Below are positions 5,880 through 43,425 of a stretch of DNA of 64,000 bases, in pieces. The DNA lies in NCBI RefSeq assembly GCF_002332425.1, contig NZ_NRGS01000005.1, forward strand, positions 284,114 through 348,113, written 5' to 3'. Numbering within the stretch: the stretch's first letter is position 1; each line of letters starts with the position of its first letter. The position numbers were made by a program, and so were the translations under genes. Below the pieces are notes generated by a model. That model ran no database searches. It worked only from the letters and a program-made list of their open reading frames with translations, and was not told the DNA's origin. Source of the stretch: Brachybacterium alimentarium. Lineage in GTDB: Bacteria > Actinomycetota > Actinomycetes > Actinomycetales > Dermabacteraceae.

Positions 5880-5944
5880 GGATCCAGGATAGCCAGCGTT
5901 GCGCGGCGACAGCCATTCCCGGACCCGTGATGAGGGGTGGCTCC

Positions 5945-6050: not shown

Positions 6051-6070
6051 GCAGGCGGGCCCGGTCGGGA

Positions 6071-7848: not shown

Positions 7849-7973
7849 CGTGTGCTCGTGCTCCGGGGATGGCGGATGGATGGGGCGCCGAGGAGGGCGC
7901 GGCGCGAGCCTATGCCACCGCGCCCCGGACCAGGGTGCTCAGGTGGGCCTTAGGGCCCGACGTCGCAGGCTGG

Positions 7974-10520
7974 TCAGCCTTCCTCGATGAGGTCGTCGGG
8001 GTCGGTCGTGACGGGGTACTCCCATGGATCCTCGGGGTCCTTGGGGACGTACGACGTCATGATCGATCCGTCGGCGCGCTGGTCGCCCAGGCCCACGGGC
8101 GTGGCGAGCACGGCGTCGTCGAGGATCGGCCCCTGGTCCGACAGGGGGGTGCTGACGCCGGCAGAGGTCACGAGGACCGGCTCGCCGCGGACGGAGACCT
8201 CGAGCTCGGCGCCCGTCTCGAGCGTGAAGGAGATCTCCTCGCGCTGCACCCGCACCCGGAAACGGGAGCCGCGCACGGTCAGCGGGAAGCTCAGCTCGGG
8301 CCAGTCCGCGGGCAGGCGAGGATCGAAGGAGACCCGCCCCTCGTCGTGCCGCATGCCGCCGAAACCGTGCACCAGGGCGTTCCACACCCCGCCAGCCGAG
8401 GCGATGTGCACGCCGTCGGAGGTGTTGTGGTGCAGATCCCCGAGGTCGACGAAGAGCCCGGCGCGGAAGTAGTCCAGGGCGGCCGTCTGGTGTCCCACCT
8501 CGGCGGCCATGATCGACTGCACCACGGCCGAGAGCGAGGAGTCGCCGGTGGTGATCGGGTCGTAGTACTCGAAGTCGGCGCGCTTCTCCTCCGCCGTGAA
8601 CTCGCTGCCGCGCAGGAACAGCGCGAGCACCACGTCCGCCTGCTTGAGGACCTGGAAGCGGTAGATCACCAGCGGGTGGAAGTTCAGCAGCAGCGGGAAC
8701 GCCTCCGGGGGAGTGCTGGAGAGGTCCCACACCTCGCGCTCCAGGAAGCGGTCCTCCTGCAGATGGATGCCCAGGGACTCGTCCTTGGCGACGTACATCC
8801 CCTCGGCGCAGGCGTCCCACTGCTCGAGCTCCAGCTCGTCGAGGTCGAGCTCGGTGCGCAGCACGGCGTACGCGGTGGCGTCCGCCCCGCGCAGCTCCCG
8901 CACGGCCCGGGCGGCACGACGCAGGTTGTACCGCGCCATGACGTTGGTGAACATGTTGTTGTTGACCACGGTCGTGTACTCGTCGGGCCCGGTGACGCCG
9001 TTGATGTGGAAGGACGTGCTGCCATCGGCCCGGAAGCGCCAGAAGCCCAGGTCCGCCCACATCCGGGCCGTCTCCACGAGGACCCGCACGCCGTCGCGGT
9101 GCTGGAAGTCCACATCTCCCGTGACGTCCACGTACTGCGAGAACGCATAGGCGACGTCGGCGTTGATGTGGTACTGCGCGGTGCCGGCCGCGTAGTAGGC
9201 CGAGGCCTCGTCGCCGTTGATGGTCCGCCAGGGGAACAGCGCCCCGCGCTGGTTGAGCTCACGGGCACGCTCGCGCGCCTTGGGCAGCAGGTTGCTGCGG
9301 AACCGCAGGGCGTTGCGGGCCCAGCGGGGCTCGGTGAAGGTCAGGAAGGGCACCACGTACACCTCGGTGTCCCAGAAGTAGTGGCCCTCGTACCCGGAGC
9401 CGGTCACGCCCTTGGCGGGGATGCCCCACTGGTCGGAGCGCGCGGAGGCCTGGGCGAGCTGGAACAGGCTCCACCGGGTCGCCTGCTGCTCCGCGGGCTG
9501 GCCCGGCAGCTGGACGTCCGATCGCTCCCAGAAGTCCGCGAGATAGTCGCGCTGGTCCTGGTACTGGACCTCGAAGCCCTCGTCGCGGACCCGGTCCAGG
9601 GTGCGGCGGCAGCGGTCGAACAGCTCACGATGGGGGACCGAGCGGGAGGAGTGATACGCGACCGCCTTGCGGACCGTCAGCGTGCTGCCCTCCTCGAGCT
9701 GGGCACGGATGACCTGGCGGCCGCGGTCCTCGCTGGTGTCCACCAGCTGCTCGACCTCGGCGTCGGACTCCACGGTGTGGTCGGCCCCCACGGCGAGGGT
9801 CATCCCGGAGGTCGAGGTGCGGTAGCCCAGCAGCATGCGACGTTCGCTGTGCCAGTTCTGCTGCGGCACCAGCACCCGGTGGGTGAAGTCGGTGGTCTGG
9901 CGCGGATCGTGCTTGTCGGTGATCGGGCCGCCGTCGACCCCCTTGCCGTAGTCGTCGGCCATGTCCTGGCGGTTGATGATCTGTGAGGAGACTGCGATGG
10001 GGGCGGACCCGTCGAGCATCGTGACCTCGAGGGTCATCAGGGCGAGGTGGCGCTGGGTGAAGGAGACCATGCGGGAGGTGGCGACCTTCACCCGCTTGCC
10101 GGCCGGGGTGCGCCAGATCAGCTCGCGGCGCAGCACGCCCTCGCGGAAGTCGATCCACCGCTCGTAGTCGACGAGGTCCGCGATCGACAGCAGCAGCGGC
10201 TCGTCGTCGACGTACAGCTTCATGACCGTCGAGTCCGGCACCGAGATCATGGTCTGCCCGGTGCGGGCGAAGCCGTAGGCGGACTCGGCGTGGTTGATCT
10301 GCCAGGTCTCGTGGAAGCCGTTGAGGAAGGTGCCGTGGCTGGACACGTCGCGGCCCTCCGGGGGCGTGCCGCGCATCCCCAGATAGCCGTTGGCGGTCGC
10401 GAACAGCGTCTCCAGATGCCCCAGGTCGCCTCCGGGCCGCGACTCCACGAGCCGCCATTCGTCCAGCGGCAGATGGGTGCGGTCGACGGGATCGGCGGGC
10501 AGCGAGCGCAGGCGGGTCAT
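7974..10520 (-). CDS. Glycoside hydrolase family 65 (disaccharide phosphorylase)
   Basis: Predicted to split an alpha-glucobiose (maltose, trehalose or kojibiose class) with phosphate, giving beta-glucose 1-phosphate and glucose; 848 residues, normal length. The N-terminal beta-sandwich (1-about 290) is followed by the (alpha/alpha)6 barrel with GYEGHYFWDTEVY (substrate site) and GVTGPDEYT, whose Glu514 is the predicted general acid. A C-terminal beta domain ends the protein. It overlaps by 4 bases the gene for a beta-phosphoglucomutase-like HAD enzyme, which would convert the released sugar phosphate to glucose 6-phosphate. Substrate cannot be fixed from sequence alone. Confidence 0.9.
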   Translation of the reverse strand: MTRLRSLPADPVDRTHLPLDEWRLVESRPGGDLGHLETLFATANGYLGMRGTPPEGRDVSSHGTFLNGFHETWQINHAESAYGFARTGQTMISVPDSTVMKLYVDDEPLLLSIADLVDYERWIDFREGVLRRELIWRTPAGKRVKVATSRMVSFTQRHLALMTLEVTMLDGSAPIAVSSQIINRQDMADDYGKGVDGGPITDKHDPRQTTDFTHRVLVPQQNWHSERRMLLGYRTSTSGMTLAVGADHTVESDAEVEQLVDTSEDRGRQVIRAQLEEGSTLTVRKAVAYHSSRSVPHRELFDRCRRTLDRVRDEGFEVQYQDQRDYLADFWERSDVQLPGQPAEQQATRWSLFQLAQASARSDQWGIPAKGVTGSGYEGHYFWDTEVYVVPFLTFTEPRWARNALRFRSNLLPKARERARELNQRGALFPWRTINGDEASAYYAAGTAQYHINADVAYAFSQYVDVTGDVDFQHRDGVRVLVETARMWADLGFWRFRADGSTSFHINGVTGPDEYTTVVNNNMFTNVMARYNLRRAARAVRELRGADATAYAVLRTELDLDELELEQWDACAEGMYVAKDESLGIHLQEDRFLEREVWDLSSTPPEAFPLLLNFHPLVIYRFQVLKQADVVLALFLRGSEFTAEEKRADFEYYDPITTGDSSLSAVVQSIMAAEVGHQTAALDYFRAGLFVDLGDLHHNTSDGVHIASAGGVWNALVHGFGGMRHDEGRVSFDPRLPADWPELSFPLTVRGSRFRVRVQREEISFTLETGAELEVSVRGEPVLVTSAGVSTPLSDQGPILDDAVLATPVGLGDQRADGSIMTSYVPKDPEDPWEYPVTTDPDDLIEEG

Positions 10521-11263
10521 GAGAGCTCCTCCAGATCCTGGACGACGAGATCGGCTCCGGCCCCGGCGAGCGCGTCGGCCCCAGCACCCCGATCCACGCC
10601 GACCACGGCCCCGAACCGGCCGGCGGCCCCGGCCTCCACACCGGAGACCGCGTCCTCGTAGACGACGCAGTCCGCTGCCCCCACGCCCAGCAGCCGGGCG
10701 GCGTGCAGGAAGGTGTCGGGGGAGGGCTTGCCGGGGATGCCGTCGCGGGCTGCGACGTTCCCGTCGACGATGTGCTCGAAGCGGTCGAGCAGACCGGCGC
10801 CGCGCAGCACCTCCTCGGCGTTGCGGGAGGAGGAGACGATCGCGAGCCGCGCACCCTCGGGCAGCGCATCGAGGTAGCGGACCGTGCCCGGGTAGGGCGC
10901 GACGCCCTCTGAGCGGATCAGCGCGAGCACCAGGTCGTTCTTGCGGTTCCCGAGCCCACGGACGGTCTCCTCGCCGACAGCCTGGTCTCCGGGATCGCCG
11001 TCCTCGCCCTCGGGCAGGGAGATGCCGCGGGACGCGAGGAAAGCACGGACCCCGTCGTAGCGGGGCCGCCCGTCGACGTGAGCGAAGTAGTCCGCATCGG
11101 TGTACGGCTCCGTCACGCCACGATCGGAGAGGAAGCCCTCGAACATGCGGGCCCAGGCCCGCATGTGGACCTCCGCCGTCGGCGTGATGACGCCGTCGAG
11201 GTCGAAGAGGTGAGCGGTGAGCTCGGACGGTCGCAAAGTGGTCTCGGCAGTCACGGCCGTCAT
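10517..11263 (-). CDS. pgmB: Beta-phosphoglucomutase-like HAD phosphatase/mutase
   Basis: HAD-superfamily enzyme of 248 residues. Motif I is FDLDGVITPTAEVH (19-32), where the two Asp are nucleophile and acid/base; motif II is IVSSSRNAEEVL, and motif III/IV is VVYEDAVSGVEAGAAGRFG. The family is the one regularly paired with GH65 phosphorylases and named beta-phosphoglucomutase, although several members are only phosphatases. I start at ATG 11263; the in-frame extension upstream is Arg/Ser-rich and unlike the family. It leads a two-gene operon with the GH65 gene, ending in a 4-base ATGA overlap. Confidence 0.85.
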   Translation of the reverse strand: MTAVTAETTLRPSELTAHLFDLDGVITPTAEVHMRAWARMFEGFLSDRGVTEPYTDADYFAHVDGRPRYDGVRAFLASRGISLPEGEDGDPGDQAVGEETVRGLGNRKNDLVLALIRSEGVAPYPGTVRYLDALPEGARLAIVSSSRNAEEVLRGAGLLDRFEHIVDGNVAARDGIPGKPSPDTFLHAARLLGVGAADCVVYEDAVSGVEAGAAGRFGAVVGVDRGAGADALAGAGADLVVQDLEELS

Positions 11264-29586: not shown

Positions 29587-29602
29587 CGCCCCCGCCGACT
29601 GG

Positions 29603-29608
29603 TAATGT
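29603..29608 (+). promoter_or_regulatory. Candidate -10 for a leaderless fdhA message
   Basis: TAATGT lies 7 bases upstream of the in-frame GTG at 29616. There is no Shine-Dalgarno before either candidate GTG (29607 or 29616). This spacing is typical of leaderless genes in actinobacteria, where transcription starts on the first base of the start codon. Confidence 0.35.
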
Positions 29609-32600
29609 GAGTCGCGTGACAAGCTTCCAGTTCCTCGAATGGCCGGTGATCCGGCAGCTTCGCGGCGCCGATCGACTCGGCCGGGGAGCTGCGGTCACCT
29701 CGAAGGCCACGCGGAGCACTGCGCCCCGCACCAGCGAGGCGGACACCGTGGTGCAGAGCGTGTGCCCGTACTGCGCCGTGGGCTGCGGTCAGAAGGTCTT
29801 CGCCAAGGACAACCGGGTCATCCAGATCGAGGGCGACCCTGATTCGCCGATCTCACGCGGTCGGCTGTGCCCCAAGGGCGCCGCGAGCGAGCAGCTGGTC
29901 AACTCCACGCGCCGCATCACGACCGTCCGCTACCGCCCCCCGTACGCCACGGACTGGCAGGATCTCGACCTCGACACCGCCATGGACATGATCGCGGACC
30001 GCTTCCTCGAGGCGCGCCGCAACCACTGGGAGGACGAGGACGAGAAGGGGCACCCGCTGAGGCGGGCGATGGGCATCGCGTCGCTGGGCGGCGCGACCAT
30101 CGACAACGAGGAGAACTACCTCGCGAAGAAGCTGTTCACCGCGGCCGGTGCCATCCAGATGGAGAACCAGGCCCGCATTTGACACTCCGCCACGGTCCCC
30201 GGTCTGGGGACCTCGTTCGGACGCGGTGGGGCCACGCAGTACCTGCAGGACATGGCCAACGCCGATTGCATCGTCATCCAGGGCTCCAACATGGCCGAGG
30301 CCCATCCGGTGGGCTACCAGTGGGTGATGGAGGCGCGCTCGCGCGGTGCTCGGGTGATCCATGTCGATCCGCGGTTCTCGCGCACCAGCGCCAACGCTGA
30401 CAAGCACCTGCCGATCCGAGCGGGAACGGACATCGTGCTGCTCGGCGCGCTCATCAACCACGTGATCGCGAATGACCTCTGGTTCACGGACTACGTCAAG
30501 GCGTTCACCAACGCCTCCTCGATCATCGAGGGCGACTTCGCCGACTCCGAGGACCTCGACGGGCTCTTCTCCGGTTTCGACCCCGCGACGGGCACCTACG
30601 ACAACGCCTCGTGGCAGTACGCCGATGCCTCTGCCGACGGAGCTGACGGAGCCGACGGAGGGCACGGTGCCTCGACGGCCACCGGCGTGCCTCACGGCGA
30701 ATCCCACGGAGAGTCCCACGGGTCCGGTGGCCCGCAGCTCGAGCACGGGGAGCCGGCCCGTGACGAGACGCTGCAGGACCCCCGGTGCGTCTTCCAGATC
30801 CTGAAGCGCCACTACGCCCGCTACACCGCCGAGATGGTCGAGGAGGCGTGCGGCATCTCCCGCGCGGACTTCGAGTACCTGGCGCGCTCGATGACGGACA
30901 ACTCCGGACCGGAGCGCACCACCTGCTTCGCCTATGCCGTGGGCTGGACGCAGCACGTCGGCGGTGCGCAGTTCATCCGCGCCGCCGGAGTGCTGCAGCT
31001 GCTGCTGGGCAACATGGGCCGCCCCGGCGGCGGCATCATGGCCCTGCGCGGCCACGCCACGATCCAGGGCTCCACGGACATCCCCACCCTGTTCAACCTC
31101 CTGCCCGGATACCTGCCCATGCCCAAGGCCGGCGCCCATGATTCGTTCGAGGACTACGTCGACTCGATCGGCTCGAAGTCCCAGAAGGGCTTCTGGGCGG
31201 AGTCCGAGGCGTACGCGGTGAACCTGCTGAAGGCCTGGTGGGGCGATGCCGCGACGGCGGAGAACGACTGGGCGTTCGACTACCTGCCGCGTTTGACCGG
31301 CGCCCACGGCACGTACCAGACCACGATGCGGATGCTCGAGGACGGGCTCGACGGATTCTTCCTGCTGGGTCAGAACCCGGCGGTGGGCTCCGCCAACGGC
31401 CGCATGCAGCGCCTGGGCATGTCGCACCTGAAGTGGATGGTGGTGCGCGACTTCTCCATGATCGAATCGGCCACCTGGTGGAAGGAGGGGCCGGAGATCG
31501 AGTCGGGCGAGCTGAAGACCGAGGACATCGCCACCGAGATGTTCTTCCTGCCCGCCGCGAACCACACCGAGAAGGCCGGATCGTTCACCCAGACCCAGCG
31601 CCTGGTGCAGTGGCGCCAGCAGGCCGTCACCCCGCCGGGGGACTGCCGCAGCGAGCTGGCGTTCATGTTCGAGCTCGGCCAGCGCCTCCGCGAGCGCCTG
31701 CGGGATTCGACCGACCCCCGAGACCGGCCGCTGCTCGACCTCACCTGGGACTACCCGACCGATGAGCACGGTGAGCCCGATCCGGAGTCCGTGCTCAAGG
31801 AGATCAACGGCTATCACGTCGGCGGCGAGCAGGACGGCGTGCCCCTGTCGTCCTACACCCAGATAACGGCCGACGGCACCACCGCGGGGGGCTGCTGGAT
31901 CTATACCGGCGTCTATGCGGACGGGGTCAACCAGGCTGCCCGGCGCAAGCCCGGCAGCGAGCAGGACAGCACCGCGGCCGAGTGGGCGTGGGCCTGGCCC
32001 GCGAACCGTCGGATCCTCTACAACCGCGCGTCCGCCGACGCCGACGGCAAGCCCTGGAGCGAGCGCAAGAAGTATGTGTGGTGGGACGAGGACACCCAGC
32101 GGTGGACCGGCAAGGACATCCCGGACTTCCCGGCGGACAAGCATCCGCACGACCTCGGGGATGCGGACGAGGGCGGCGCTGCCGCCCTCGCCGGGAACGA
32201 CGCATTCGTCATGCAGGCCGACGGCCGCGGCTGGCTGTTCGCGCCCTCGGGCATGGTCGACGGTCCTCTCCCCACGCACTACGAGACGGTCGAGTCGGCG
32301 ATCCCGAACCCGCTGTACGGCCAGCAGGCGAACCCCACCCAGATGACCATCACGGATCGCGACAACATGAACGCCCCGGGCATCACCGGTACGGCGGCCG
32401 AGGGCGAGGTCTACCCGTACGTGTTCACCACCTACCGCCTCACCGAGCACCACACCGCCGGCGGGATGAGCCGCTTCCTGCCGTACCTGGCCGAGCTGCA
32501 GCCCGAGCTGTTCTGCGAGGTCTCTCCGGAGCTCGCCGAGGAGGTCGGGCTGGAGCAGAACGGCTGGGCGACGGTGATCACCCCGCGGTCCGCGATCGAG

Positions 32601-32984
32601 GCCCGGGTGCTGGTCACCCGACGCATGAGGCCGCTCCAGGCGGCCGGCCGCACGGTGCACCAGATCGGGATCCCGTACCACTGGGCGCAGGGCACCGAGG
32701 CCGTGGTCTCCGGTGATGCGGTCAACGACCTGATCGGGATGAACCTCGATGCCAACACGCAGATCCAGAACTCCAAGGTGATCGCGTGCGCCCTGCGCCC
32801 CGGCCGTCGTCCGCGCGGGCCCGCCCTGCGTGATCTGGTGGCAGACTTCCAGGATCGGGCCGGGATCAGTCCGACGACGGCGGAGAGCACGCTGGACATC
32901 GGTCCGACCACGGCTGAGCCGTCCGCTGAGCTCGCGGTCGACGACCCCCGAGGGGCCGACACCGCCTCTGGAGAGGAGCACTGA
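29607..32984 (+). CDS. fdhA: Selenocysteine-containing formate dehydrogenase, catalytic subunit
   Basis: Molybdenum/tungsten-bis-MGD enzyme oxidising formate to CO2, 1125 residues when the in-frame TGA at 30180-30182 is read as selenocysteine (residue 192). Upstream are the [4Fe-4S] ligands in VCPYCAVGCGQ and GRLCPKG (Cys53, 56, 60, 88). Right after the TGA comes HSATVPGLGTSFGRGGAT, matching the conserved Sec-His region of FdnG-type enzymes, and the frame stays open to 32984. The molybdopterin dinucleotide-binding domain fills the C-terminus. No twin-arginine signal is seen, so the enzyme should face the cytoplasm. An Asp/Gly/His/Ser-rich insert (about 340-380) is extra. The start is GTG 29607 or 29616. 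First gene of fdhA-fdhB-nrfD; stop overlaps fdhB (TGATG). Confidence 0.95.
30180..30216 (+). promoter_or_regulatory. UGA selenocysteine codon with bacterial SECIS hairpin
   Basis: TGA (30180-30182) is followed after 11 bases by stem GGTCCCC (30194-30200), loop GGTCT (30201-30205) and stem GGGGACC (30206-30212). The loop matches the GGUCU of the E. coli fdhF SECIS, and the distance to UGA is the same as there. The bulged U of the E. coli stem is not present. This is the site SelB should bind during decoding. Confidence 0.85.
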
Positions 32985-34018
32985 TGGGATCGCTGATCGA
33001 ATCCGCAGGACGCCCGGGCGCCGATTCCGGCTGGGAGCACGAGCATCCGCGCAAGGGGTTCTTCACCGACACCTCCATCTGCATCGGCTGCAAGGCCTGC
33101 GAGGTGGCCTGCAAGGAATGGAACCAGAACCCGACCGACGGGGACCTCGAGCTGCTCGGCTCCTCCTTCGACAACACCGGGGAGCTGGGTGCGAACACGT
33201 GGCGCCACGTGGCCTTCGTGGAGCAGGATTCCGAGCGCATCGAAGAGGCCAAGGAGTCGGGCCGACGCCTCGTCAGCCTGGGCATGCCCACGGTGGGCCC
33301 CCGCTCCAGCGGACCGCGCCCCGGTGCCCCCTCCACCCCGGGCGGCCGTCCTGGCGATGACCTGACCGGTGAGGACACCACCCCGCCGGACACCCCCGAG
33401 TTCCGCTGGCTGATGTCCTCTGACGTCTGCAAGCACTGCACCAACGCCGGCTGCCTGGACGTGTGCCCGACCGGCGCGCTGCACCGCACCGAGTTCGGCA
33501 CCGTCGTGGTGCAGCAGGACGTCTGCAACGGCTGCGGGACCTGCGTGGGCGGTTGCCCGTTCGGCGTGATCGAGCGTCGGGACGACGGCACCATCTCCCC
33601 GCGCTCCTCCCGCGACGAGGGGGAGCAGAAGGATCCCGACCACGGGACCGCCAACAAGTGCACGCTCTGCTACGACCGGCTCGTCGTCGGCGAGACCCCC
33701 GCGTGCGCGCAGACCTGCCCGACCACCTCGATCAAGTTCGGCGACCGCGAGGACATGGTCGACAGCGCCGAGGAGCGTGTGCAGCAGCTGCACTCCCAGG
33801 GCATGACCGAGGCGCGCCTGTACGGCGCTAACCCGCACGACGGCGTGGGCGGGATCGGCTCGGTGTTCCTGCTGCTGGACGAGCCGGAGGTCTACGGCCT
33901 GCCGCCGGACCCCCAGGTGCCCACGAAGGAGCTCCCTCAGATGTACCGGACCGCCGGCGTCGCCGCTCTCGGGATGGTCGCCGCGACCGCCCTCGCCTTC
34001 CTCGGAGGGCGTCGGTGA
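32984..34018 (+). CDS. fdhB: Formate dehydrogenase iron-sulfur subunit
   Basis: Electron-transfer subunit of 344 residues with four [4Fe-4S] cluster motifs: CIGCKACEVACKEWN, CKHCTNAGCLDVCPTGAL, CNGCGTCVGGCPFGVI and CTLCYDRLVVGETPACAQTC. The C-terminus has a single hydrophobic helix (TAGVAALGMVAATALAFLG), which should anchor it to the membrane beside the NrfD subunit. An inserted Pro/Gly/Ser-rich loop lies between clusters 1 and 2 (about 95-130). ATG overlaps the fdhA stop by one base and the stop overlaps nrfD by 4 bases, so the three subunits are made in step. Confidence 0.95.
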   Translation: MGSLIESAGRPGADSGWEHEHPRKGFFTDTSICIGCKACEVACKEWNQNPTDGDLELLGSSFDNTGELGANTWRHVAFVEQDSERIEEAKESGRRLVSLGMPTVGPRSSGPRPGAPSTPGGRPGDDLTGEDTTPPDTPEFRWLMSSDVCKHCTNAGCLDVCPTGALHRTEFGTVVVQQDVCNGCGTCVGGCPFGVIERRDDGTISPRSSRDEGEQKDPDHGTANKCTLCYDRLVVGETPACAQTCPTTSIKFGDREDMVDSAEERVQQLHSQGMTEARLYGANPHDGVGGIGSVFLLLDEPEVYGLPPDPQVPTKELPQMYRTAGVAALGMVAATALAFLGGRR

Positions 34019-35211
34019 CGCACGCAGCCCATTCCGAGTACGACTCCTACCGGCCCCCGGAGCCGCCCCGGCGCAGGCGTCGACGCGGCGGGGGTCTCGG
34101 CAGCCGCTCCGGACGGCCGGGCCGCCCCGGCCAGGCCGGTGGTGGCGACGGCTCGCGCGAGATGCCGATGGTCGAGGACGTCGAGTTCAGCTCCTACTAC
34201 GGCCGTCCCGTCGTCAAGGCTCCGCCGTGGGAGTGGCCGATCGGCCTGTACCTCTTCGTCGGCGGGCTGGCGGGCGGTTCCGCGCTGCTCGGCGCCGGCG
34301 GATCCCTGACCGGCCGTGCCGGGCTGCGCCGCACGGCACGCCTCACCGCCGTCGGCGCCGTCGGGGTGGGCCTGCCGGCACTGGTCATGGACCTCGGGCG
34401 CCCGGAGCGGTTCTTGAACATGCTGCGCGTGTTCAAGCCGACCTCGCCGATGAGCATGGGCACCTGGCTGCTCTCGGCCTTCGGCACCGCTGCCGGTGTC
34501 GCCGCCGCAGGTGAGATGGACCGGATGACGGGGGAGCGGCTGCCGCTGGGCCGGCTCCGACCTCTGCTGCGCGTCGCGGAGGGCGCGGGCGGTGCAGGCG
34601 CCGCCGTGCTCGGCGCGCCGCTGGCGGCGTACACGGCCGTCCTGTTGGGCGATACTGCGGTGCCGACCTGGGCTGCCTCGCGCAAGGGTCTGGCCTATGT
34701 GTTCGTGTCCTCGGCCGGGATGGCCGCAGGCGGCGCAGCCATGATCACGACCCCGACGGCGGAGGCCGGACCTGCCCGAACCCTGGCCGTGCTCGGCGTC
34801 GCGGGGGACCTGATCGGGATGCGCTTCACGAAGGAGCAGATGCATCCGCTGGAAGCCGAACCGCTCGAGACCGGCGGCGCAGGGTGGAAGCTCCGCCTCT
34901 CCGAGGGCCTCGCGATCGCGGGCGGTCTCGGCACGCTCCTGGGAGGACGCCACCGGGGGATCGCGACCCTCAGCGGCCTCGCGCTCGCCTCGGCCTCGGC
35001 GCTGACTCGCTTCGGGGTGCTCGAGGCCGGGCTGGAATCGGTCAAGGATCCGCGCCGCGTCATCGAACCGCAGCGCGAGCGCCTCGAGAAGCGCCGTGCC
35101 GCCGGCATCACCGACGACTCGATCACCACCGGCCCCCGCCCGGCAGCTCCGGAGCAGCCCGGATCGGACTCCGAGTCGCAGGTGCCGGGGTCGGCAGCAC
35201 CGATGGAGTAG
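34015..35211 (+). CDS. nrfD: NrfD/PsrC-type membrane subunit of formate dehydrogenase
   Basis: Polytopic quinone-reactive subunit of 398 residues from GTG. After a basic, Gly/Arg-rich N-terminus come YYGRPVVKAPPWEWPIGLYLFVGGLAGGSALLG (the typical NrfD first helix) and about eight helices, with the conserved LVMDLGRPERFLNMLRVFKPTSPMSMGTW loop. It would take electrons from FdhB to menaquinone, in place of the cytochrome b subunit of E. coli FDH-N. The C-terminal 60 residues are hydrophilic. Its stop codon lies inside a 15-bp tandem repeat array. Confidence 0.93.
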   Translation: MTHAAHSEYDSYRPPEPPRRRRRRGGGLGSRSGRPGRPGQAGGGDGSREMPMVEDVEFSSYYGRPVVKAPPWEWPIGLYLFVGGLAGGSALLGAGGSLTGRAGLRRTARLTAVGAVGVGLPALVMDLGRPERFLNMLRVFKPTSPMSMGTWLLSAFGTAAGVAAAGEMDRMTGERLPLGRLRPLLRVAEGAGGAGAAVLGAPLAAYTAVLLGDTAVPTWAASRKGLAYVFVSSAGMAAGGAAMITTPTAEAGPARTLAVLGVAGDLIGMRFTKEQMHPLEAEPLETGGAGWKLRLSEGLAIAGGLGTLLGGRHRGIATLSGLALASASALTRFGVLEAGLESVKDPRRVIEPQRERLEKRRAAGITDDSITTGPRPAAPEQPGSDSESQVPGSAAPME

Positions 35212-35261
35212 TACCCGAAGGAGTGGGTCTCGAAGGGGTGGGCACCGATGGGGTGGGCTCC
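35202..35261. repeat. Four 15-bp tandem repeats across the nrfD stop codon
   Basis: Units GATGGAGTAGTACCC, GAAGGAGTGGGTCTC, GAAGGGGTGGGCACC and GATGGGGTGGGCTCC follow one another without gaps. The first contains the nrfD stop TAG (35209-35211). The array fills most of the short gap to the convergent selD gene. Confidence 0.75.
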
Positions 35262-35322
35262 GAGGAATCTCGCGTCGGAGCTCCGGGACCGCTGGCCGCG
35301 CCGGTCAGCGCGCGGGGACGGC

Positions 35323-36348
35323 TCAGCGCACGTCGATCCCCGCACCCTCCACCGTCTCGCCGATGATCGGGTACCCCGGGACCTCGCCGACCACGAGCAG
35401 CCCGCCGGACGTCTGGGCATCCGCGAGCAGCAGCAGATCGTCCTCCGTGATGCCCGCTCCGGGGCGCACGCTCTCGCGCACCCACTCGAGGTTGCGACGG
35501 GTCCCGCCGGAGACGTAGCCGTCGCGCAGCGCCTCGGCCGCCCCGTCGATCAGCGGCACGGAGGCCCGGTCGAGCACGACGCCCACACCGGAGGCCCGCG
35601 CCATCTTGTGCAGATGCCCGAGCAGACCGAAGCCGGTCACATCCGTCGCCGCTTCGGCCCCGGCGGCCAGCGCTGCCTTCGCGGCATCCCGGTTCAGGGA
35701 AGTCATGCTCGCGATCGCGGCCTGGGAGACGTCGCCGGTCGTCTTCATCCGGTTGTTCAGCAGGCCCACGCCGATCGGCTTGGTCAGCGTGATCGGCAGC
35801 CCGGCCCGGGCGGCGTCGTTGCGCAGCAGACGGTCCGGATCCGCAGTGCCGGTGACAGCCATGCCGTACTTGGGCTCGGGATCATCGACCGAGTGCCCGC
35901 CGATCACCGGTACGCCAGCCTCCTTCGCGACCTGCAGACCGCCCGCGAGGACCTCGCGGAGCAGGTCGAAGGACAGCACGCCGCGCGGCCAGCCCACCAG
36001 GTTGATCGCCACCACGGGGTCCCCGCCCATGGCGTAGATGTCCGACAGGGCGTTCGCGGCGGCGATGCGGCCCCAGTCGAAGGGGTCATCGACCACCGGC
36101 GTGAAGAAATCCGCGGTGGAGAGCACAGCGGTCCCGCCGTCGATGCGCACGGCCGCGGCGTCGTCGCCGTCGTCCAGTCCCACGATAACCGAGTCGTACT
36201 GCTGGCCGGACAGGGCCGCGACGACCTCCTCGAGCTCGCCGGGCGGGATCTTCGAGGCGCAGCCACCGCCGTGCGCCATCGTCGTCAGGCGGATCGTCGG
36301 AGTCGTGGCGGAGGGCGTGCTGACAGGAGAGATCGGGGAGTCGCTCAT
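35323..36348 (-). CDS. selD: Selenophosphate synthetase
   Basis: Makes selenophosphate from selenide and ATP, the selenium donor for SelA, 341 residues. The N-terminal glycine-rich loop is HGGGCASK with catalytic Cys30 and Lys33; many organisms have Sec in the Cys position, this one has Cys. The VGLDDGDDAAAVRID motif with ATP/Mg-binding Asp, the ALSDIYAMGG motif and TDVTGFGLLGHLHKM are conserved. It faces nrfD and is divergent from selC-selA-selB, so the selenium genes share a 221-base promoter region. Confidence 0.96.
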   Translation of the reverse strand: MSDSPISPVSTPSATTPTIRLTTMAHGGGCASKIPPGELEEVVAALSGQQYDSVIVGLDDGDDAAAVRIDGGTAVLSTADFFTPVVDDPFDWGRIAAANALSDIYAMGGDPVVAINLVGWPRGVLSFDLLREVLAGGLQVAKEAGVPVIGGHSVDDPEPKYGMAVTGTADPDRLLRNDAARAGLPITLTKPIGVGLLNNRMKTTGDVSQAAIASMTSLNRDAAKAALAAGAEAATDVTGFGLLGHLHKMARASGVGVVLDRASVPLIDGAAEALRDGYVSGGTRRNLEWVRESVRPGAGITEDDLLLLADAQTSGGLLVVGEVPGYPIIGETVEGAGIDVR

Positions 36349-36379
36349 GCTCGGAGCCTACCCATCCGCATGCCGTTCT

Positions 36380-36520
36380 CGACCTGATCCCAGCGGGCTC
36401 TCGGCCGGATCTCGGCCGTCCCTCGACGGGTTCTCGGCCGGATTCCGGCGGACAGGCCGGCATTCTCCCGGCACTCTCCCCAGCGCTGGTCCGAGTACCG
36501 TCCCCTGCACTCTCCCCAGC
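36380..36520. repeat. Degenerate repeats in the selD/selC promoter gap
   Basis: TCTCGGCCGGAT-like units recur (36400-36450), then CACTCTCCCCAGC-type units recur twice (36473-36520). Copies are imperfect and the period drifts. No gene is seen. A GATACC -10 candidate for selC follows at 36555-36560. Confidence 0.5.
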
Positions 36521-36569
36521 ACTGTCCTCAGTGCGGAGCACCTGGTGGGGCGGTGATACCTTGACCCGT

Positions 36570-36664
36570 GGAGGCGTACGTGTCCTGGTGGGCGCCCCGG
36601 TCTTCAAAACCGGTGAGACCGAGCATCTCGGTCTGGCGGGTTCGATTCCCGTCCGCCTCCGCCA
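36570..36664 (+). tRNA. selC: tRNA-Sec (anticodon TCA)
   Basis: Ninety-five bases including encoded CCA, discriminator G. Acceptor GGAGGCG/CGCCTCC with an eighth U-C apposition, a 6-bp D-stem (GTGTCC/GGGCGC), anticodon stem CCGGT/ACCGG with loop CTTCAAA (TCA anticodon), a long variable arm with the 8-bp stem AGACCGAG/CTCGGTCT and loop CAT, and a 5-bp T-arm (GCGGG/CCCGT) around TTCGATT. Long variable arm, 6-bp D-stem and UCA anticodon are diagnostic of bacterial tRNA-Sec. It lies 62 bases upstream of selA. Confidence 0.97.
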
Positions 36665-36726
36665 CCCGCCTGATGCCGCCGCGGGAGCGGCGAACCGCCG
36701 CCGTCGGCCCGAACGAGGAGGTTCCC

Positions 36727-38082
36727 GTGCCCGAGTCCGTGGAGCGCCCGGAGGCGGTCGAGGACCCCCGCCGTCGCATCCCGCGCACCGACCTCCTGCT
36801 CGCGCATCCGCAGGTCGCCCGTGCGAGCGCAACGATGAGCGACCTGGTGGTGCGGGACATCGTGCGCGCCGCGCAGGCCCGTGCACGAGCCGGTGAGATC
36901 GCCCCGGAGCAGGTGCTGGATGATGTGCGCGCCGCGATCGGGGACCGCCCGTCCTCCTCCCTGCGCCCGGTGCTCAACGCCACCGGGGTCATCGTGCACA
37001 CCAACCTCGGTCGGGCACCGCTGTCGGCCGCGGCGCGGGAGGCCGTCCTGGACGCCGCCGGATACACCGACGTCGAGTTCGACCTCGCCACGGGTGCTCG
37101 GGCTCGCCGCGGCGCCGGCGCCCGGGCCGCCCTGCTCGCCGCCTGCCCGGAGGCGGAGGACGCGCTCGTGGTGAACAACGGTGCCGCAGCCCTCGTGCTC
37201 GCCACCACCGCGTTGGCGGGGACGGCGGACGTCGTGATCAGCCGCGGCGAGCTGATCGAGATCGGGGCGGGCTTCCGTCTCCCGGACCTGATCGCCTCGG
37301 CCGGTGCCCGGATCCACGAGGTCGGCACCACCAATCGCACCCATCTGGCCGATTACACGGAAGCGCTCGGAGAGCGGACCGGCTGCGTGCTGCGCATCCA
37401 CACCAGCAACTACCGCATCATCGGTTTCACCAGCGAGGTCGGGATCGCTGAGCTCGCCGAGCCGTGCCGCGCGGCCGGAGTGCCGCTGCTCGCGGACCTC
37501 GGCAGCGGACTGCTCGCGCCCGACGTGCACCTGCCGGAGGAGCCCGATGCGGCCTCCGCACTCCGGGACGGCGCGGATCTGGTGATCGCCAGCGGGGACA
37601 AGCTGCTCGGCGGTCCCCAGGCCGGCATCCTGCTGGGCAGGGCCGACGTGATCGCCCGCCTGGCCCGCCACCCCCTGGCGCGGGCCGTGCGCGCGGACAA
37701 GCTCGCCCTGGCCGCTCTCGAGGCCACCCTGACCGGAACCGCCCCGCCGGTGATCGACTCCCTGCATGCGGACCCGGACCAGCTGCACCAGCGGACCGCT
37801 CGGGTCGCCGAGCGGCTCGGGGGCCGGCTCATCCCGCACGATGGCCGCGTGGGCGGGGGAGGAGGCGCCGAGGTGCCGTTGCCCGGCTGGGCCGTCGCCC
37901 TCGAGGCCGAGCTCGCTGCTCCCTTGCGCACCGGGGACCTCGCCGTCGTGGCCACCGTGCGCGACGGCGACTGCCTGCTGGACCTGCGCACCGTCCCGCC
38001 CGAGCAGGACGATCGCCTCGTCGCGGCCGTGGACTCGGCGCGCGCGGTTCTCGCGGCGGCGGGGGAGCCGGACCGCCGATGA
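36727..38082 (+). CDS. selA: L-seryl-tRNA(Sec) selenium transferase
   Basis: PLP enzyme converting Ser-tRNA-Sec to Sec-tRNA-Sec with selenophosphate, 451 residues. The N-terminal helical domain begins with RRIPRTDLLLAHP; the core has VLNATGVIVHTNLGRAPLS, the VGTTNRTHLADY loop, HTSNYRIIGFT and the PLP lysine Lys292 in SGDKLLGGPQAG. I start at GTG 36727, which has AGGAGG five bases upstream; a longer in-frame reading would run back through tRNA-Sec. The stop overlaps selB by 4 bases (ATGA). Confidence 0.96.
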   Translation: MPESVERPEAVEDPRRRIPRTDLLLAHPQVARASATMSDLVVRDIVRAAQARARAGEIAPEQVLDDVRAAIGDRPSSSLRPVLNATGVIVHTNLGRAPLSAAAREAVLDAAGYTDVEFDLATGARARRGAGARAALLAACPEAEDALVVNNGAAALVLATTALAGTADVVISRGELIEIGAGFRLPDLIASAGARIHEVGTTNRTHLADYTEALGERTGCVLRIHTSNYRIIGFTSEVGIAELAEPCRAAGVPLLADLGSGLLAPDVHLPEEPDAASALRDGADLVIASGDKLLGGPQAGILLGRADVIARLARHPLARAVRADKLALAALEATLTGTAPPVIDSLHADPDQLHQRTARVAERLGGRLIPHDGRVGGGGGAEVPLPGWAVALEAELAAPLRTGDLAVVATVRDGDCLLDLRTVPPEQDDRLVAAVDSARAVLAAAGEPDRR

Positions 38083-39869
38083 GGCAGGTGATCGCCACCG
38101 CCGGTCACGTCGACCACGGGAAGTCCACCCTGATCAGAGCGCTGACCGGGAGCGACCCCGACCGGTTCGCGGAGGAGAAGCAGCGCGGGCTGAGCATCGA
38201 TCTAGGCTTCGCCTGGACCGTGCTGCCCTCGGGACGCGAGGTGTCCTTCGTCGACGTCCCGGGCCATGAGCGGTTCCTGGGCAACATGCTCGCCGGGCTG
38301 GGCCCTGCCCCGATCGTGTGCTTCGTGATCGCGGCCGACGAGGGCTGGAGCGCGCAGTCCTCCGACCACCGCGACGCGATCGCGGCCCTCGGCATCGACC
38401 AGGGGATCCTCGTGATCACCCGCCTGGACCTGGCTCCCGACGGGGTCGGGGAGGTCCTCGCCGAGGCCCGTCGCGAGCTCGCCGGGACCGGCCTCGAGGA
38501 TGCTCCCGCCGTCGGGGTCGCCAGCACCACCGGGGAGGGTCTGGATGCGCTCCGGGACACGCTGGACGCTCTGGTCGCCACCGCACGCGAACCGTCCGCG
38601 CAGGAACGGGTGAGGCTGTGGGTGGACCGGTCCTTCACGATCGGAGGCGCGGGCACCGTGGTGACCGGGACCCTCGCCGCCGGGACCCTCACCCGGGGCC
38701 ACCGTCTGGAGCTGTGCGGCGAGCAGCGCGGCGGCGAGGTCACCGTGCGCGGGCTGCAGACCCGGGGCGACGCGGTGGAGTCGATCGGCCCCGTGAACAG
38801 GGTCGCCGTGAACCTGCGCGGGATCGGCACCGACGAGATCGGCCGCGGGGACGCACTGCTCACACCCGGTTCCTGGGCCACGTCCTCCCTGCTCGACGTG
38901 CGCCGGGTGGGCGGCGCGGGGCTCGCCGACGCGCCCGCGGAGCTCACGGTGCACATCGGCACCGCAGCCGTCCCCGCCCGGGTGCGGCCTCTCGGGGAGG
39001 GTCACGCCCGCCTCACCCTGTCCCGTGCGCTGCCACTGCGGGTGGGCGATCGGATGGTGCTGCGTGGCAGCGGGAGCGCATCGGTCCGCAGCGGTGTGCA
39101 GGTGCTGGACCTGGACCCTCCGCGCCTGGAACGTCGCGGCGACGGGACACGGCGCATCCGCACCCTCGAGGCGATGCCGGCCACCGGCGACGTCGGCATC
39201 GAGGTCTCCCGCCGGGGAGCGCTGCGACGCGAGCATCTCGCGCGCACCGGGATCCACGTGCCCTCGCAGCTGCCGACGAGCGTGCGCGCCGCCGGGGACT
39301 GGCTCGTCGACGCCGCGGCGCTGGAGGATTGGGCTGCTGGGCTGCGAGCACAGGTGGAGGCCGACCGTCGAGCCGACGCCCTCTCGCCCGGCGTGCCGAG
39401 GAAGGCCGCGATCGACGCGCTCGACCTGCCCGATCCGGTGCTGCTGGACGCCGTGGTGGGCGCCGCCGACCTGCGGTTCTGGGACGGCCGCGTGCAGGAC
39501 GCGCAGGAGACCTCCGGCCTCGGCGCTGCGGAGACCGGCATCGCCGAGCTGGAACGGCGTCTGGGGGACGGGCCCTTCCGGGCTCCGGAGGCCGACGACC
39601 TGGTGCAGCTGCGGCTGGGCGCTCGCGAGCTCGCCGCGGCGGCCCGTCAGGGACGCGTGCTGCGCCTGAGCGGGGAGGTGATCCTCCTGCCGAGCGCGCC
39701 CGCCCTCGCCATGCGGGAACTCGCTCGCCTGCCCCCGCCGTTCACGGCCTCCCAGGCCCGCCGAGCCCTCGGCACCACGCGCCGGGTCATGATCCCGCTG
39801 CTCGAGCATCTCGATGCGCGCGGGTGGACCCGGCGCGTGGACGCCGGGCACCGGGAGATCGTGCGCTGA
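38079..39869 (+). CDS. selB: Selenocysteine-specific translation elongation factor
   Basis: GTPase that carries Sec-tRNA-Sec to the ribosome at UGA codons next to a SECIS, 596 residues. G1 is GHVDHGKST (9-17), G3 DVPGHERF, G4 has TRLD in place of the usual NKxD, typical for SelB. Domains 2 and 3 (about 180-350) follow, then the C-terminal winged helices (about 370-596) that bind the SECIS hairpin, ending with RRVMIPLLEHLDARGWTRRVDAGHR. Overlaps selA by 4 bases. Convergent with valS, 27 bases away. Confidence 0.96.
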   Translation: MRQVIATAGHVDHGKSTLIRALTGSDPDRFAEEKQRGLSIDLGFAWTVLPSGREVSFVDVPGHERFLGNMLAGLGPAPIVCFVIAADEGWSAQSSDHRDAIAALGIDQGILVITRLDLAPDGVGEVLAEARRELAGTGLEDAPAVGVASTTGEGLDALRDTLDALVATAREPSAQERVRLWVDRSFTIGGAGTVVTGTLAAGTLTRGHRLELCGEQRGGEVTVRGLQTRGDAVESIGPVNRVAVNLRGIGTDEIGRGDALLTPGSWATSSLLDVRRVGGAGLADAPAELTVHIGTAAVPARVRPLGEGHARLTLSRALPLRVGDRMVLRGSGSASVRSGVQVLDLDPPRLERRGDGTRRIRTLEAMPATGDVGIEVSRRGALRREHLARTGIHVPSQLPTSVRAAGDWLVDAAALEDWAAGLRAQVEADRRADALSPGVPRKAAIDALDLPDPVLLDAVVGAADLRFWDGRVQDAQETSGLGAAETGIAELERRLGDGPFRAPEADDLVQLRLGARELAAAARQGRVLRLSGEVILLPSAPALAMRELARLPPPFTASQARRALGTTRRVMIPLLEHLDARGWTRRVDAGHREIVR

Positions 39870-39896: not shown

Positions 39897-42572
39897 TCAG
39901 CCCTTCGCGCGCGGGGTCTTCACGGGCGGCTCGCCCAGCTCGACGTCCTCGGTGAGGATCTCGTCGGTCTCCGCAGCAACGAGCTCGAGCGACTCGATCC
40001 GCCCGAGCGCCGTGAGATCGGCCGAGGCCGCTTCGAGATGCGCGAGCACGGGCGCCGAGGCGACGACCTTGACCCGCAGGATCGGGGTCTTCTGCGAGAC
40101 CTTCGCGTCGGACTTGATGCGGCGCACGGAGATCGCGGCCTGGGCGACGGAGTCCGCCAACGAGGCGTCCTGCCCGGCGGCCGCGTCGAACAGCGGCTCG
40201 GCGACCGGCCAGGGCTGCGTGTGCACGCTGCCCTCGCGCCACCACGACCACACCTCTTCGGTCGCGAACACGATCACCGGGGCGAACAGGCGCAGCAGCA
40301 CCTCCAGCGAGATGGACAGCGCTGCGCGGGCCGAGGCCGCGCCGGCCTCGCCCGAGGGCGAGTTGCCGTGGGCGCGCTCCTTGACCAGCTCGATGTAGTC
40401 ATCGCAGAACGCCCAGAAGAAGGGCTCGGTGACCTCGAGCGCACGGGCGTAGTCCATGTCGTCGAAGGCGACCGTGGCCTGCTCGACGACCTTCCCGAGC
40501 TGGGCCAGGAGGGCGCGGTCTAAGGGCTCGGTGACCGCGGCCGGATCCGCGGCCAGACGACCGGCGGGATCGGCGGGCGCCTGACCGAAGCCGAAGGCGA
40601 ACTTCGAGGCGTTGAGGATCTTGATCGCGAGGCGTCGGCCGATCTTCATCTGGCCCTCGTCGAAGGCGGTGTCCACGCCCTGGCGGGCACGGCCCGCCCA
40701 GTAGCGCACGCCGTCGGAGCCGTGCTGCTCGAGCAGCCCGATCGGGGTGACCACGTTGCCCTTGGACTTGGACATCTTCTTGCGGTCCGGGTCCAGGATC
40801 CAGCCGTTGATCGAGGCGTGCTTCCACGGCAGGGAGTCCTGCTGGAGGTGGGAGCGCACGATGGTGGAGAACAGCCACGTGCGGATGATGTCGTGGCCCT
40901 GCGGCCGCACATCCATCGGGTACACGGTGTCGAAGAGGCCCGGGTCCGAGTTCCAGCCGCCCGCGAGCTGCGGGGTCAGCGAGGAGGTGGCCCAGGTGTC
41001 GAGGATGTCGGGGTCGGCGACGAAGCCGCCCGGCCGGTTCCGCTGCTCCTCGGTGAATCCGGCGGGCACGTCGATCGTGGGATCGATCGGGAGCTCCTCC
41101 AGGCCCGGGGTGAGCACAGTGCCGTAGTCCGTCTCGCCGCCCTCGCCCACCGCGTACCAGACCGGGAAGGGCACGCCGAAGAAGCGCTGGCGGGAGATCA
41201 GCCAGTCGCCGGCCAGGCCCTCGACCCAGTTGCGGTAGCGGGACTCCATGTACGCGGGGTGCCAGGTCAGCTCGCGTCCGCGCTCGATGAGCGCATCGCG
41301 CAGACCGCCCTCGGACTGGTCGCGGCCGCCGTTGGTGAGGTACCACTGGCGGGAGGTGACGAACTCGAGCGGCTTGTCGCCGTTCTCGTAGAACTTCACC
41401 GGGTGGCTGATCTTCTCGATCTCGCCGGTGAGGTCGCCGGACTCGGTGGCCATCTCCACCACGCGCTTCTGCGCGCTGAACACGGTCAGCCCGGCCAGCT
41501 CCGCATAGCGCTCCTGGCCCTCCGGGGTGGAGATCCACGGTGCCTCGGGCAGGAAGCGGCCGTCGCGGCCCACCACGGAGCGCGTGGGCAGTTCGAGCTC
41601 GCGCCACCAGGTCACGTCGTTCGCATCGCCGAAGGTGCAGATCATGGCGATGCCCGCGCCCTTGTCGGGCTGGGCGAGGGAATGCGCGAGCACCGGCACC
41701 TCGACGTCGAACAGGGGCGAGGTGACGGTGGTGCCGAACAGGGCCTGGTACCGCTCGTCGTCCGGGTGGGCGACGAGCGCGACGCACGCCGGCAGCAGCT
41801 CGGGACGGGTGGTGGCGATGACGACCTTCTCGCCGGTCCCGTCGGTGCGGGTGAAGCCGAGGCGATGGTAGGCGCCCTCGCGGTCGCGGTCCTCCTGCTC
41901 GGCCTGGGCCACCGCAGTGCGGTAGGTGACGTCCCACATGGTGGGGGCCTCGGCCTGGTACGCCTGGCCGGCCTCGAGGTTCTCGAGGAAGGCGCGCTGG
42001 CTGGTGGCCCGGGAGTGAGCGTTGATGGTCTGGTAGCTGTGATTCCAGTCCACGGACAGCCCGAGCGTGCGGAAGACGTCCTCGAAGGACTTCTCGTCGA
42101 TCTCGGTGAGTCGCTCGCACAGCTCGATGAAGTTGCGTCGTGAGACCGGCAGCTGGTTCGCGGCCTTCGAGGACTTGTTGTCGCCGCCCTCCTGCGGGGG
42201 CGTGAAGTCGGCGTCGTAGGGGAGCGAGGGATCGCAGCGCACCCCGAAGTAGTTCTGCACCCGGCGCTCGGTGGGCAGGCCATTGTCGTCCCAGCCCAGC
42301 GGGTAGAAGACGTTCTTCCCGCGCATGCGCTGGTAGCGGGCGATCATGTCGGCCTGGGAGTAGCCGAACACGTGACCCACGTGCAGGGAGCCGGAGGCCG
42401 TCGGCGGCGGGGTGTCGATGCTGAAGACCTGCTCGCGCGTGGTGTCGGACTCGAAGGCGTAGAGCTTCCGCTCGCTCCATACACCGTCCCACTTCTCCTC
42501 CAGACCCTCGAGGGAGGGACGGTCGGGGATCGTGGAGTCAGGGCGCGGCGCGATATCGGTCATGGGGCTCAT
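39897..42572 (-). CDS. valS: Valine-tRNA ligase, archaeal/type-2 form
   Basis: Charges tRNA-Val; 891 residues. The class I signature is HVGHVFGYSQ and the second is KMSKSKGNVVTP. The region FYPLGWDDNGLPTERRVQNYFGVRCDPS is that of the type-2 (archaeal-like) ValRS seen in archaea and a few bacteria, not the usual bacterial form, and the C-terminal coiled-coil arm of E. coli ValRS is missing. An editing domain (about 220-400) is present. Two in-frame ATGs (42572 and 42563) are close; upstream is only GGAAG. Sequence upstream of 42572 is not ValRS-like. Divergent from the phosphoesterase gene. Confidence 0.93.
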   Translation of the reverse strand: MSPMTDIAPRPDSTIPDRPSLEGLEEKWDGVWSERKLYAFESDTTREQVFSIDTPPPTASGSLHVGHVFGYSQADMIARYQRMRGKNVFYPLGWDDNGLPTERRVQNYFGVRCDPSLPYDADFTPPQEGGDNKSSKAANQLPVSRRNFIELCERLTEIDEKSFEDVFRTLGLSVDWNHSYQTINAHSRATSQRAFLENLEAGQAYQAEAPTMWDVTYRTAVAQAEQEDRDREGAYHRLGFTRTDGTGEKVVIATTRPELLPACVALVAHPDDERYQALFGTTVTSPLFDVEVPVLAHSLAQPDKGAGIAMICTFGDANDVTWWRELELPTRSVVGRDGRFLPEAPWISTPEGQERYAELAGLTVFSAQKRVVEMATESGDLTGEIEKISHPVKFYENGDKPLEFVTSRQWYLTNGGRDQSEGGLRDALIERGRELTWHPAYMESRYRNWVEGLAGDWLISRQRFFGVPFPVWYAVGEGGETDYGTVLTPGLEELPIDPTIDVPAGFTEEQRNRPGGFVADPDILDTWATSSLTPQLAGGWNSDPGLFDTVYPMDVRPQGHDIIRTWLFSTIVRSHLQQDSLPWKHASINGWILDPDRKKMSKSKGNVVTPIGLLEQHGSDGVRYWAGRARQGVDTAFDEGQMKIGRRLAIKILNASKFAFGFGQAPADPAGRLAADPAAVTEPLDRALLAQLGKVVEQATVAFDDMDYARALEVTEPFFWAFCDDYIELVKERAHGNSPSGEAGAASARAALSISLEVLLRLFAPVIVFATEEVWSWWREGSVHTQPWPVAEPLFDAAAGQDASLADSVAQAAISVRRIKSDAKVSQKTPILRVKVVASAPVLAHLEAASADLTALGRIESLELVAAETDEILTEDVELGEPPVKTPRAKG

Positions 42573-42660
42573 TCTTCCAGGTCTTCGTCTCAGTGCAACG
42601 CAGACGTCAGCAGTGTGAGCGCCCTCGCGTGCCGCCACGGCATCGACGTACCGTGACGGC

Positions 42661-43425
42661 ATGCCTGTCGAACGCATCGCCGTGGTCTCGGACGTGCACG
42701 GGAACCTCACCGCCTACGAGGCCGTCCTCGCCGATATCGCCTCTCGCGGTATCCATCGCGTGATCAATCTGGGCGATGTCGTGGGCAAGGGGCCGCGCGG
42801 CTCGGCCTGCACGGCGCTGACCCGCGAGCGCTGCGAGAGCACCGTGCGCGGGAACTGGGAGGCCTTCCTCGCCGGGGACGGAGAGCTGTCCGGCGACGGG
42901 CTGCGATGGTGGCGGGCCGAGCTCACGGCGCAGGACCGTGCGTGGCTCCATGCCCTCCCCGGCAGCCTCGACCTGCGGCTCTCGGGCCGACGGGTGCGCC
43001 TGGTCCACGCCTCGCCGATCGACGAGTTCACCCGAGTGCACCGCGAGCCCGACGACGAGACGTTCGCGATGATGTTCGAGCCGACGCCCTTCACCGGTGA
43101 TGCAGGGCGGGCCGACGTCGTCGCCTACGGCGACATCCATGACGCCTTCGTCTCGGCGCAGCCGGGCGCCACGCTCGTGAACGTCGGCAGCGTGGGCAAC
43201 CCGCTCGACGAGCCGACGCCCTCCTACGTGATCCTCGAAGGGGATCCCGACGGGGACGTCCAGGTCCCCTTCGGGATCCAGTTCGTCCGGGTGAGCTACG
43301 ACGCCGAGGCGGAGATCGAGGCAGCGGCCGCCTCCGGGATGCCGGCTCGGGAGATCCAGGCCTACGCGATCGAGCTGCGCACCGGGGTCTACCGCGGCCT
43401 CCACGCCCAGCTCGGACTGCGGTGA
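42661..43425 (+). CDS. Metallophosphoesterase (YfcE/ApaH-like)
   Basis: Calcineurin-like phosphoesterase of 254 residues. Metal-binding motifs are visible in order: VVSDVHGNL (Asp and His), NLGDVVGKGP, RGNWEAF (Asn in place of the usual GNHD), LVHASP and YGDIHDAF/VNVGSVG. The fold is complete. Substrate unknown; relatives act on phosphodiesters, nucleotides or protein phosphates. Divergent from valS with an 88-base gap. Confidence 0.87.
   Translation: MPVERIAVVSDVHGNLTAYEAVLADIASRGIHRVINLGDVVGKGPRGSACTALTRERCESTVRGNWEAFLAGDGELSGDGLRWWRAELTAQDRAWLHALPGSLDLRLSGRRVRLVHASPIDEFTRVHREPDDETFAMMFEPTPFTGDAGRADVVAYGDIHDAFVSAQPGATLVNVGSVGNPLDEPTPSYVILEGDPDGDVQVPFGIQFVRVSYDAEAEIEAAAASGMPAREIQAYAIELRTGVYRGLHAQLGLR

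Follow-up and report, generated by a model that had tools for sequence, protein, structure and literature searches.

A resident selenocysteine locus in Brachybacterium and the probable replacement of its formate dehydrogenase operon

Do the genes that make and insert selenocysteine (Sec) pass between genomes together with the enzyme that uses it? The question is raised by a locus at positions 29607-39869 of a 64 000-nucleotide stretch of the Brachybacterium alimentarium genome (contig NZ_NRGS01000005.1, positions 284 114 to 348 113), here called the window. The locus contains the operon fdhABC, coding for a formate dehydrogenase with a predicted Sec residue, and the Sec genes selD, selC, selA and selB. 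A preliminary description had proposed that the whole is a self-contained module, transferable as a unit, and published work, too, has the Sec trait move by joint travel of sel genes and fdhA. Comparison with other genomes of the genus points to another history: this is very probably a one-client Sec locus, resident and vertically inherited, in which fdhABC was replaced from another species while the sel genes were kept. The selenoprotein operon would here have travelled alone, and client and machinery would be separable in evolution. Otherwise this is an ordinary actinobacterial block of Sec and formate dehydrogenase genes, of a known kind.

Different histories of fdhABC and the sel genes

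The discordant tract is given below. Its edges are taken from sliding DNA identity and are accurate to about 100-200 bp.

29600-35320 (no strand assigned): tract read as replaced, the fdhABC operon, with a history unlike that of its flanks by sliding DNA identity, triplet site counts and approximately unbiased (AU) tests

Identity to the window in fdhA, fdhB and fdhC does not follow identity in valS (rho -0.04, 0.04 and -0.01; n = 28). For selD, selA and selB the two are correlated (rho 0.59, 0.54 and 0.71; n = 29, 30 and 30). Trees were compared over the 28 genomes common to the clpX + valS, fdhABC and selDAB sets, with AU tests under LG+G4; the core grouping was derived from clpX + valS, and the alternative grouping was named after the fdh tree had been viewed. 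The clpX + valS tree groups the window with genomes G036, G020, G008 and G023 (support 93/98.5). This clade is rejected by fdhABC (log-likelihood difference -354, AU p = 2.5e-71), whose tree unites the window with G008 and G023 (100/100). For selDAB, the core clade is not rejected (p = 0.436) and the trio of the window, G008 and G023 is (p = 1.8e-4); clpX + valS also rejects the trio (p = 0.006). In the core tree, G008/G023 do not come out as sisters of the window, so that two or more changes would be needed, whatever their order and direction.

The same contrast is visible along the DNA. Between 29639 and 35338, identity to G008 is 79-92% in 17 of the 19 intervals of 300 bases, the remaining pair having 75 and 66%. 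The core sister G036 reaches 65-82% in the same intervals (50 and 36% in the two exceptional ones). In clpX, the chorismate mutase gene and selD, the window is equally similar to both genomes. For locus L060, this comparison is usable only rightward of its contig end at fdhA. Triplet site counts, with G036 as sister and G008 as partner, give 937 sites for the partner and 311 for the sister within fdhABC, against 617 and 771 in the other genes (p = 1.6e-58). The triplets are concordant whether G008 or G023 is taken as partner of the window, or the window as partner of G023. Away from fdhABC, clpX shows no preference (75 to 63 and 73 to 70 for the partner) and valS sides with the sister.

The linker of FdhA between the Sec codon and the motif HYxRYT has two forms in the genus. 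It is long in 10 of the 33 sequences (spacing 197-212), including the window, and short in 23 (spacing 176), including the core sister G036; the long form exceeds the common one by 21-36 residues. In the window, the linker lies at about 30640-30790, bears glycines and histidines and is 33 residues longer than that of G036.

There is a second, recent case of fdhABC exchange, between G003 and G033. Over fdhABC, these genomes share 92-99% DNA identity (at least 96% in 13 of 18 intervals of 300 bases), as against 85-91% over valS, 65-81% within selD-selA-selB and 17-56% in the gap between selD and selA. The corresponding distances are 0.024 for fdhABC, 0.126 for the core genes and 0.302 for the sel genes. 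In the triplet of G003, its core sister G025 and its partner G033, the sites within fdhABC divide 407 to 85 in favour of G033, and those outside it 1148 to 424 in favour of G025 (p = 1.1e-109). The best segment, 2866-8429 of the stretch fetched, begins where the chorismate mutase gene ends and stops at the end of fdhC. No pair with unusually close sel genes was found among the 378 pairs of genomes: the lowest sel/core ratio is 0.76 of the median, as against 0.12 for fdh.

Such replacements may have arisen by homologous recombination with DNA of another species, with edges near those of the operon, leaving selD-selC-selA-selB in place. A foreign client could be workable because its Sec insertion sequence (SECIS) hairpin, nearly unchanged across the family, would be readable by the resident SelB. 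On balance, although with reserve, we favour a broader reading in which the sel locus would serve as a fixed docking site: client operons carrying their own SECIS would be replaced repeatedly between species at the operon edges, the uniform SECIS making this possible, while the Sec machinery stays resident and vertical. The natural pairs of a resident SelB with a foreign fdhA and SECIS could show how far SelB-SECIS recognition limits the transfer of selenoproteins.

Chromosomal site and rival explanations

SelA is present in 37 of the 38 Brachybacterium genomes, that of the window included, and in 42 of the 47 genomes of the family (three of six genera). Among the 35 genus relatives fetched (G032 was left out), both flanks could be read and the block lies at the same site, between clpX-chorismate mutase and valS, in 29. 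The remaining six comprise five interrupted by contig ends and one, L049 (G016), with neither flank in its stretch. In L049 the selD-selA gap, at about 6724-10783, measures some 4 kb, and clpX and valS fall outside the fetched stretch. The locus is very probably resident in Brachybacterium and passed on with the chromosome, and the trait is nearly fixed in the genus. In the sole genus member without SelA, G006, no relic of sel or fdh genes was detected from valS to the chorismate mutase gene; the place of the block (L086:3600-5100) is occupied by a methyltransferase gene and a YefM/YoeB-like toxin-antitoxin pair (PF02604, PF06769).

The preliminary description had itself noted that presence in all close relatives, with trees fitting the species tree, would argue against mobility, and this is largely what was found for the genus. 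A mobile unit should combine patchy presence with a foreign history shared by client and machinery. In Brachybacterium this combination is absent: presence is nearly universal, the site is common, the sel trees fit the core genes, and the sel and fdh histories differ. The client operon seems to have moved on its own, and the sel genes reject the fdh grouping. A gain of the whole 10-kb block as a unit by this lineage is therefore very improbable, although such transfers do seem to occur on a wider scale. The full order fdhA-fdhB-fdhC-selD(minus)-selA-selB is found in 80 of 100 actinobacterial loci (15 of the 100 were later counted as duplicates), with varying flanks, and within the family the genera g2 and g4 have the block beside different genes; in G038, G040 and G043, valS is on a separate contig from it. 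In the window's order, a SelA match above the cut-off was obtained in 132 of 396 genomes, some of the matches being weak or partial, and in 39 of 110 genera at E<=0.001. Across orders, both gene sets reject the monophyly of Mycobacteriales (sel p = 0.001, fdh p = 1.4e-6; 65/94 rows) and also that of the window's order (sel p = 9e-76, fdh p = 2.6e-4; 47/94 rows, Corynebacterium omitted). The trees contain long branches, and three rows of the order held together in the latter test cluster with Propionibacterium; this rejection need not stem from Mycobacterium alone. The Brevibacterium blocks show no significant polyphyly (sel p = 0.295, fdh p = 0.133). Transfer of whole blocks between distant actinobacterial lineages is likely; the rejection of order clades by both sel and fdh fits it, and transfers of sel genes adjoining fdhA have been published (PMC1794560; PMC5029168, whose Table 2 covers other actinobacteria and which reports transfer for Arthrobacter).

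If fdhABC had been duplicated long ago in the genus and different copies were later lost in different lineages, no replacement would be needed in the window's lineage. It could account for the long and short linkers and for a discordance spanning exactly one operon. For the window, hidden paralogy would yield similar trees, and extinct copies are conceivable. Nevertheless it is very improbable: no genome examined has two copies, the losses would have to leave one copy everywhere, and fdhABC of G003 is 92-99% identical to that of G033 despite core genes that are not close. We consider it extremely improbable that the whole block is vertical and the fdh discordance an artefact of rate or alignment. 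The distances give this idea its opening, as over all 378 pairs fdh correlates with valS (r 0.62-0.64) nearly as closely as sel does (0.65-0.70); the log-likelihood difference of 354, the site counts in four triplets, the sharp identity steps and the G003/G033 tract contradict it.

That near-equality, like the paralogy just mentioned, weighs against the replacement of fdhABC that we prefer, as do several other observations. It implies that swaps are a minority, and because the all-pairs correlation does not separate fdh from sel, we rely on trees, triplets and tracts. The core clade has a support of 93/98.5, unstarred, and is built on clpX and valS alone. The linker is an imperfect clade marker, as G022 has the long form and lies outside the fdh-tree clade of the other nine. 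The maximum-sum segments of the window extend left into the clp genes, where there is no clear signal, and the left edge consequently rests on sliding DNA identity. The fdh distance between the window and G008 is 0.62 of the median ratio, the 14th lowest of the 378 pairs. It does not date the exchange, and its use as a date was dropped, 13 other pairs being lower. A possible third swap, of fdhABC from genus g2 into G022, proved not significant (p = 0.177).

Gene content, recoding signal and client

As the preliminary description had reported, selA, selB, selC and selD all adjoin a formate dehydrogenase operon whose catalytic subunit needs Sec. The features are as follows.

29607-32984 (+): fdhA, formate dehydrogenase catalytic subunit, predicted selenoprotein (Sec is residue 192, counted from the GTG at 29607)
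30180-30182 (+): in-frame UGA, predicted Sec codon, the sole in-frame TGA of fdhA, after the NQARI motif
30194-30212 (+): SECIS apical hairpin, 7-bp stem with RGUYU loop, nucleotides 15-33 from the U of the UGA
32984-34018 (+): fdhB, iron-sulphur electron-transfer subunit with Fer4 domains
34015-35211 (+): fdhC, NrfD-type membrane subunit (PF03916, 63.0 bits)
35323-36348 (-): selD, selenophosphate synthetase (TIGR00476, 383 bits; cut-off 125)
36570-36664 (+): selC, tRNA-Sec, anticodon UCA (ARAGORN; Rfam RF01852, 81.5 bits)
36727-38082 (+): selA (TIGR00474, 417 bits; cut-off 267.9)
38082-39869 (+): selB, Sec-specific elongation factor (TIGR00475, 243.2 bits; PF09107 winged helix)

FdhA contains the domains PF00384, PF04879 and PF01568 and scores 1895.9 bits against NF041513 (curated cut-off 1400), the actinobacterial selenocysteine formate dehydrogenase family already in NCBIfam, and 903.3 bits against TIGR01553. 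Its predicted catalytic UGA follows a conserved QARI motif, as NF041513 expects. There is no RR pair in its first 60 residues, hence no obvious twin-arginine translocation signal. FdhB reaches 167.9 bits against TIGR01582, under the equivalog cut-off of 334.7, and SelB clears its cut-off of 242.25 by only about one bit. SelD has a cysteine in GGGCASK and no in-frame UGA; selA begins with GTG, preceded by the Shine-Dalgarno-like AGGAGG. The overlaps pointed out in the preliminary description exist inside the two operons (fdhA/fdhB 1 nt, fdhB/fdhC 4 nt, selA/selB 1 nt), but the flanking genes are clear of the block and selD is on the opposite strand. To the left, the chorismate mutase gene (PF01817) stops at 29586; to the right, valS (39897-42710, minus strand) ends 27 nt from the end of selB. 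The genes identified adjoining the block are those for ClpX, chorismate mutase, ValS and a metallophosphatase. Scans for promoter and terminator patterns were uninformative, with no promoter and three terminators, the latter against 1.0 expected.

SelA, with selenophosphate from SelD, would convert Ser-tRNA-Sec into Sec-tRNA-Sec, and SelB would bring it to the ribosome at the UGA of fdhA, marked for recoding by the downstream hairpin. The product is presumably a molybdenum formate dehydrogenase, passing electrons through FdhB to the NrfD-type membrane subunit and probably then to quinone.

The hairpin was analysed in the window and in 95 loci with a TGA at the Sec site, which give 68 distinct sequences of 54 nt. 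The motif search for this site had no match in four loci and matched another residue in six, probably by chance in other frames. In the 68 sequences, pairing in the 7-bp stem is 98%, and both sides have changed in 19 cells, compared with 2.2 in shuffles. A subset of 40 sequences gives 97.1% pairing and 17 such cells; shuffles average 2.8, and not one of 500 has as many as 17. The loop occurs as GGUCU, AGUCU and AGUUU. RNAalifold, applied to 38 sequences (22 distinct), recovers the same hairpin with one extra pair and two more weak stems. A covariance model scores the fdhA site at 79.6 bits in the window's own genome; the next of its seven matches has 18.1 bits (E about 3), 150 of the 6265 first-look candidates having been scored. 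Some figures speak against the hairpin, and with it against an exchange that depends on a uniform SECIS. In the 40-sequence subset, only three pairs have a double change, a number reached in 122 of 500 shuffles. Sliding the 3' partner by +3 still leaves 13 double-changed cells in the set of 68 and nine in that of 40, with pairing then just 29%. Folded by itself, the 61-nt SECIS stretch does no better than shuffles (z 0.30). The elements of a bacterial Sec-decoding trait (SelB, tRNA-Sec, SelA, SelD and a gene with an in-frame UGA and a downstream SECIS hairpin) are all present here, and insertion of Sec is predicted.

The suggestion of a single client is supported, within the reach of the searches made: the genome has one fdhA match (E<=1e-20), no PF00384 protein besides FdhA, and one convincing match to the SECIS model. 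The searches covered fdhA homologues, PF00384 enzymes and this type of SECIS, and selenoproteins with another SECIS could escape them. Across the family, all 42 SelA-positive genomes have an fdhA with in-frame TGA and none of the five SelA-negative ones has an fdhA match. At the same threshold, each of the 42 has one fdhA place, apart from weak matches of 33-35% in G019 and G024. In the fdhA of L037 (G002), there is an extra in-frame TGA and a frame change near the end, for which a defective gene or an error in the sequence could be responsible.

The term self-contained holds in that the sel genes adjoin their client, but not for the cofactor genes, of which FdhD and the C-terminal domain of MoaA were searched. 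As the preliminary description had noted, fdhD and molybdenum cofactor genes are out of view: each protein has one match in the genome, outside the window (FdhD, G000:C11:74503-75264; MoaA, G000:C5:203444-203839). FdhD is absent in two of the 47 family genomes (G006 and the SelA-positive G030, in 520 contigs), and MoaA in four (G006 and the SelA-positive G014, G029 and G032). Since one or the other is missing from SelA-positive genomes, single absences occur in draft genomes too. From G006, the block, FdhD and MoaA are all missing. The family members G042, G044, G045 and G046, without sel genes or fdhA, retain FdhD and MoaA, which may serve something else there.

Related loci in other bacteria

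A similar arrangement was described in 2010 in Corynebacterium aurimucosum, where fdnG/fdxH and selABCD likewise cluster a selenol formate dehydrogenase with genes for Sec synthesis and incorporation; fdnG has an internal UGA and, as here, fdhD is elsewhere on the chromosome (PMC2830990). That account, as far as it bears on this point, concerns a single genome and leaves the histories of client and machinery uncompared. The membrane-bound FDH1 of A. chiangmaiensis DSM 45062 (FdhA1-B1-C1) is also listed with SelA and SelB, and selenium is needed for formate removal by this strain; it differs in that SelD is unlisted with the cluster in that source and in having three Sec-formate dehydrogenase systems instead of one (PMC7176365). 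The trait transfers presented in PMC1794560 and PMC5029168, as far as these sources describe them, involve clustered machinery and one fdhA client, as here, proposed to move jointly; in Brachybacterium the two part company within one genus, the machinery remaining in place under an exchanged client. A search of open-licence papers, by titles and starts of abstracts, returned none on a selenoprotein operon being replaced independently of resident sel genes, and none on this locus in Brachybacterium.

The closest solved chains to FdhA are formate dehydrogenases. The best are 1kqf, Escherichia coli formate dehydrogenase N (FDH-N), and 1h0h, a formate dehydrogenase alpha subunit, whose catalytic subunits are homologous to FdhA over most of its length. 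The membrane subunit of FDH-N is a cytochrome b; that of the Brachybacterium enzyme, unlike it, is of the NrfD type.

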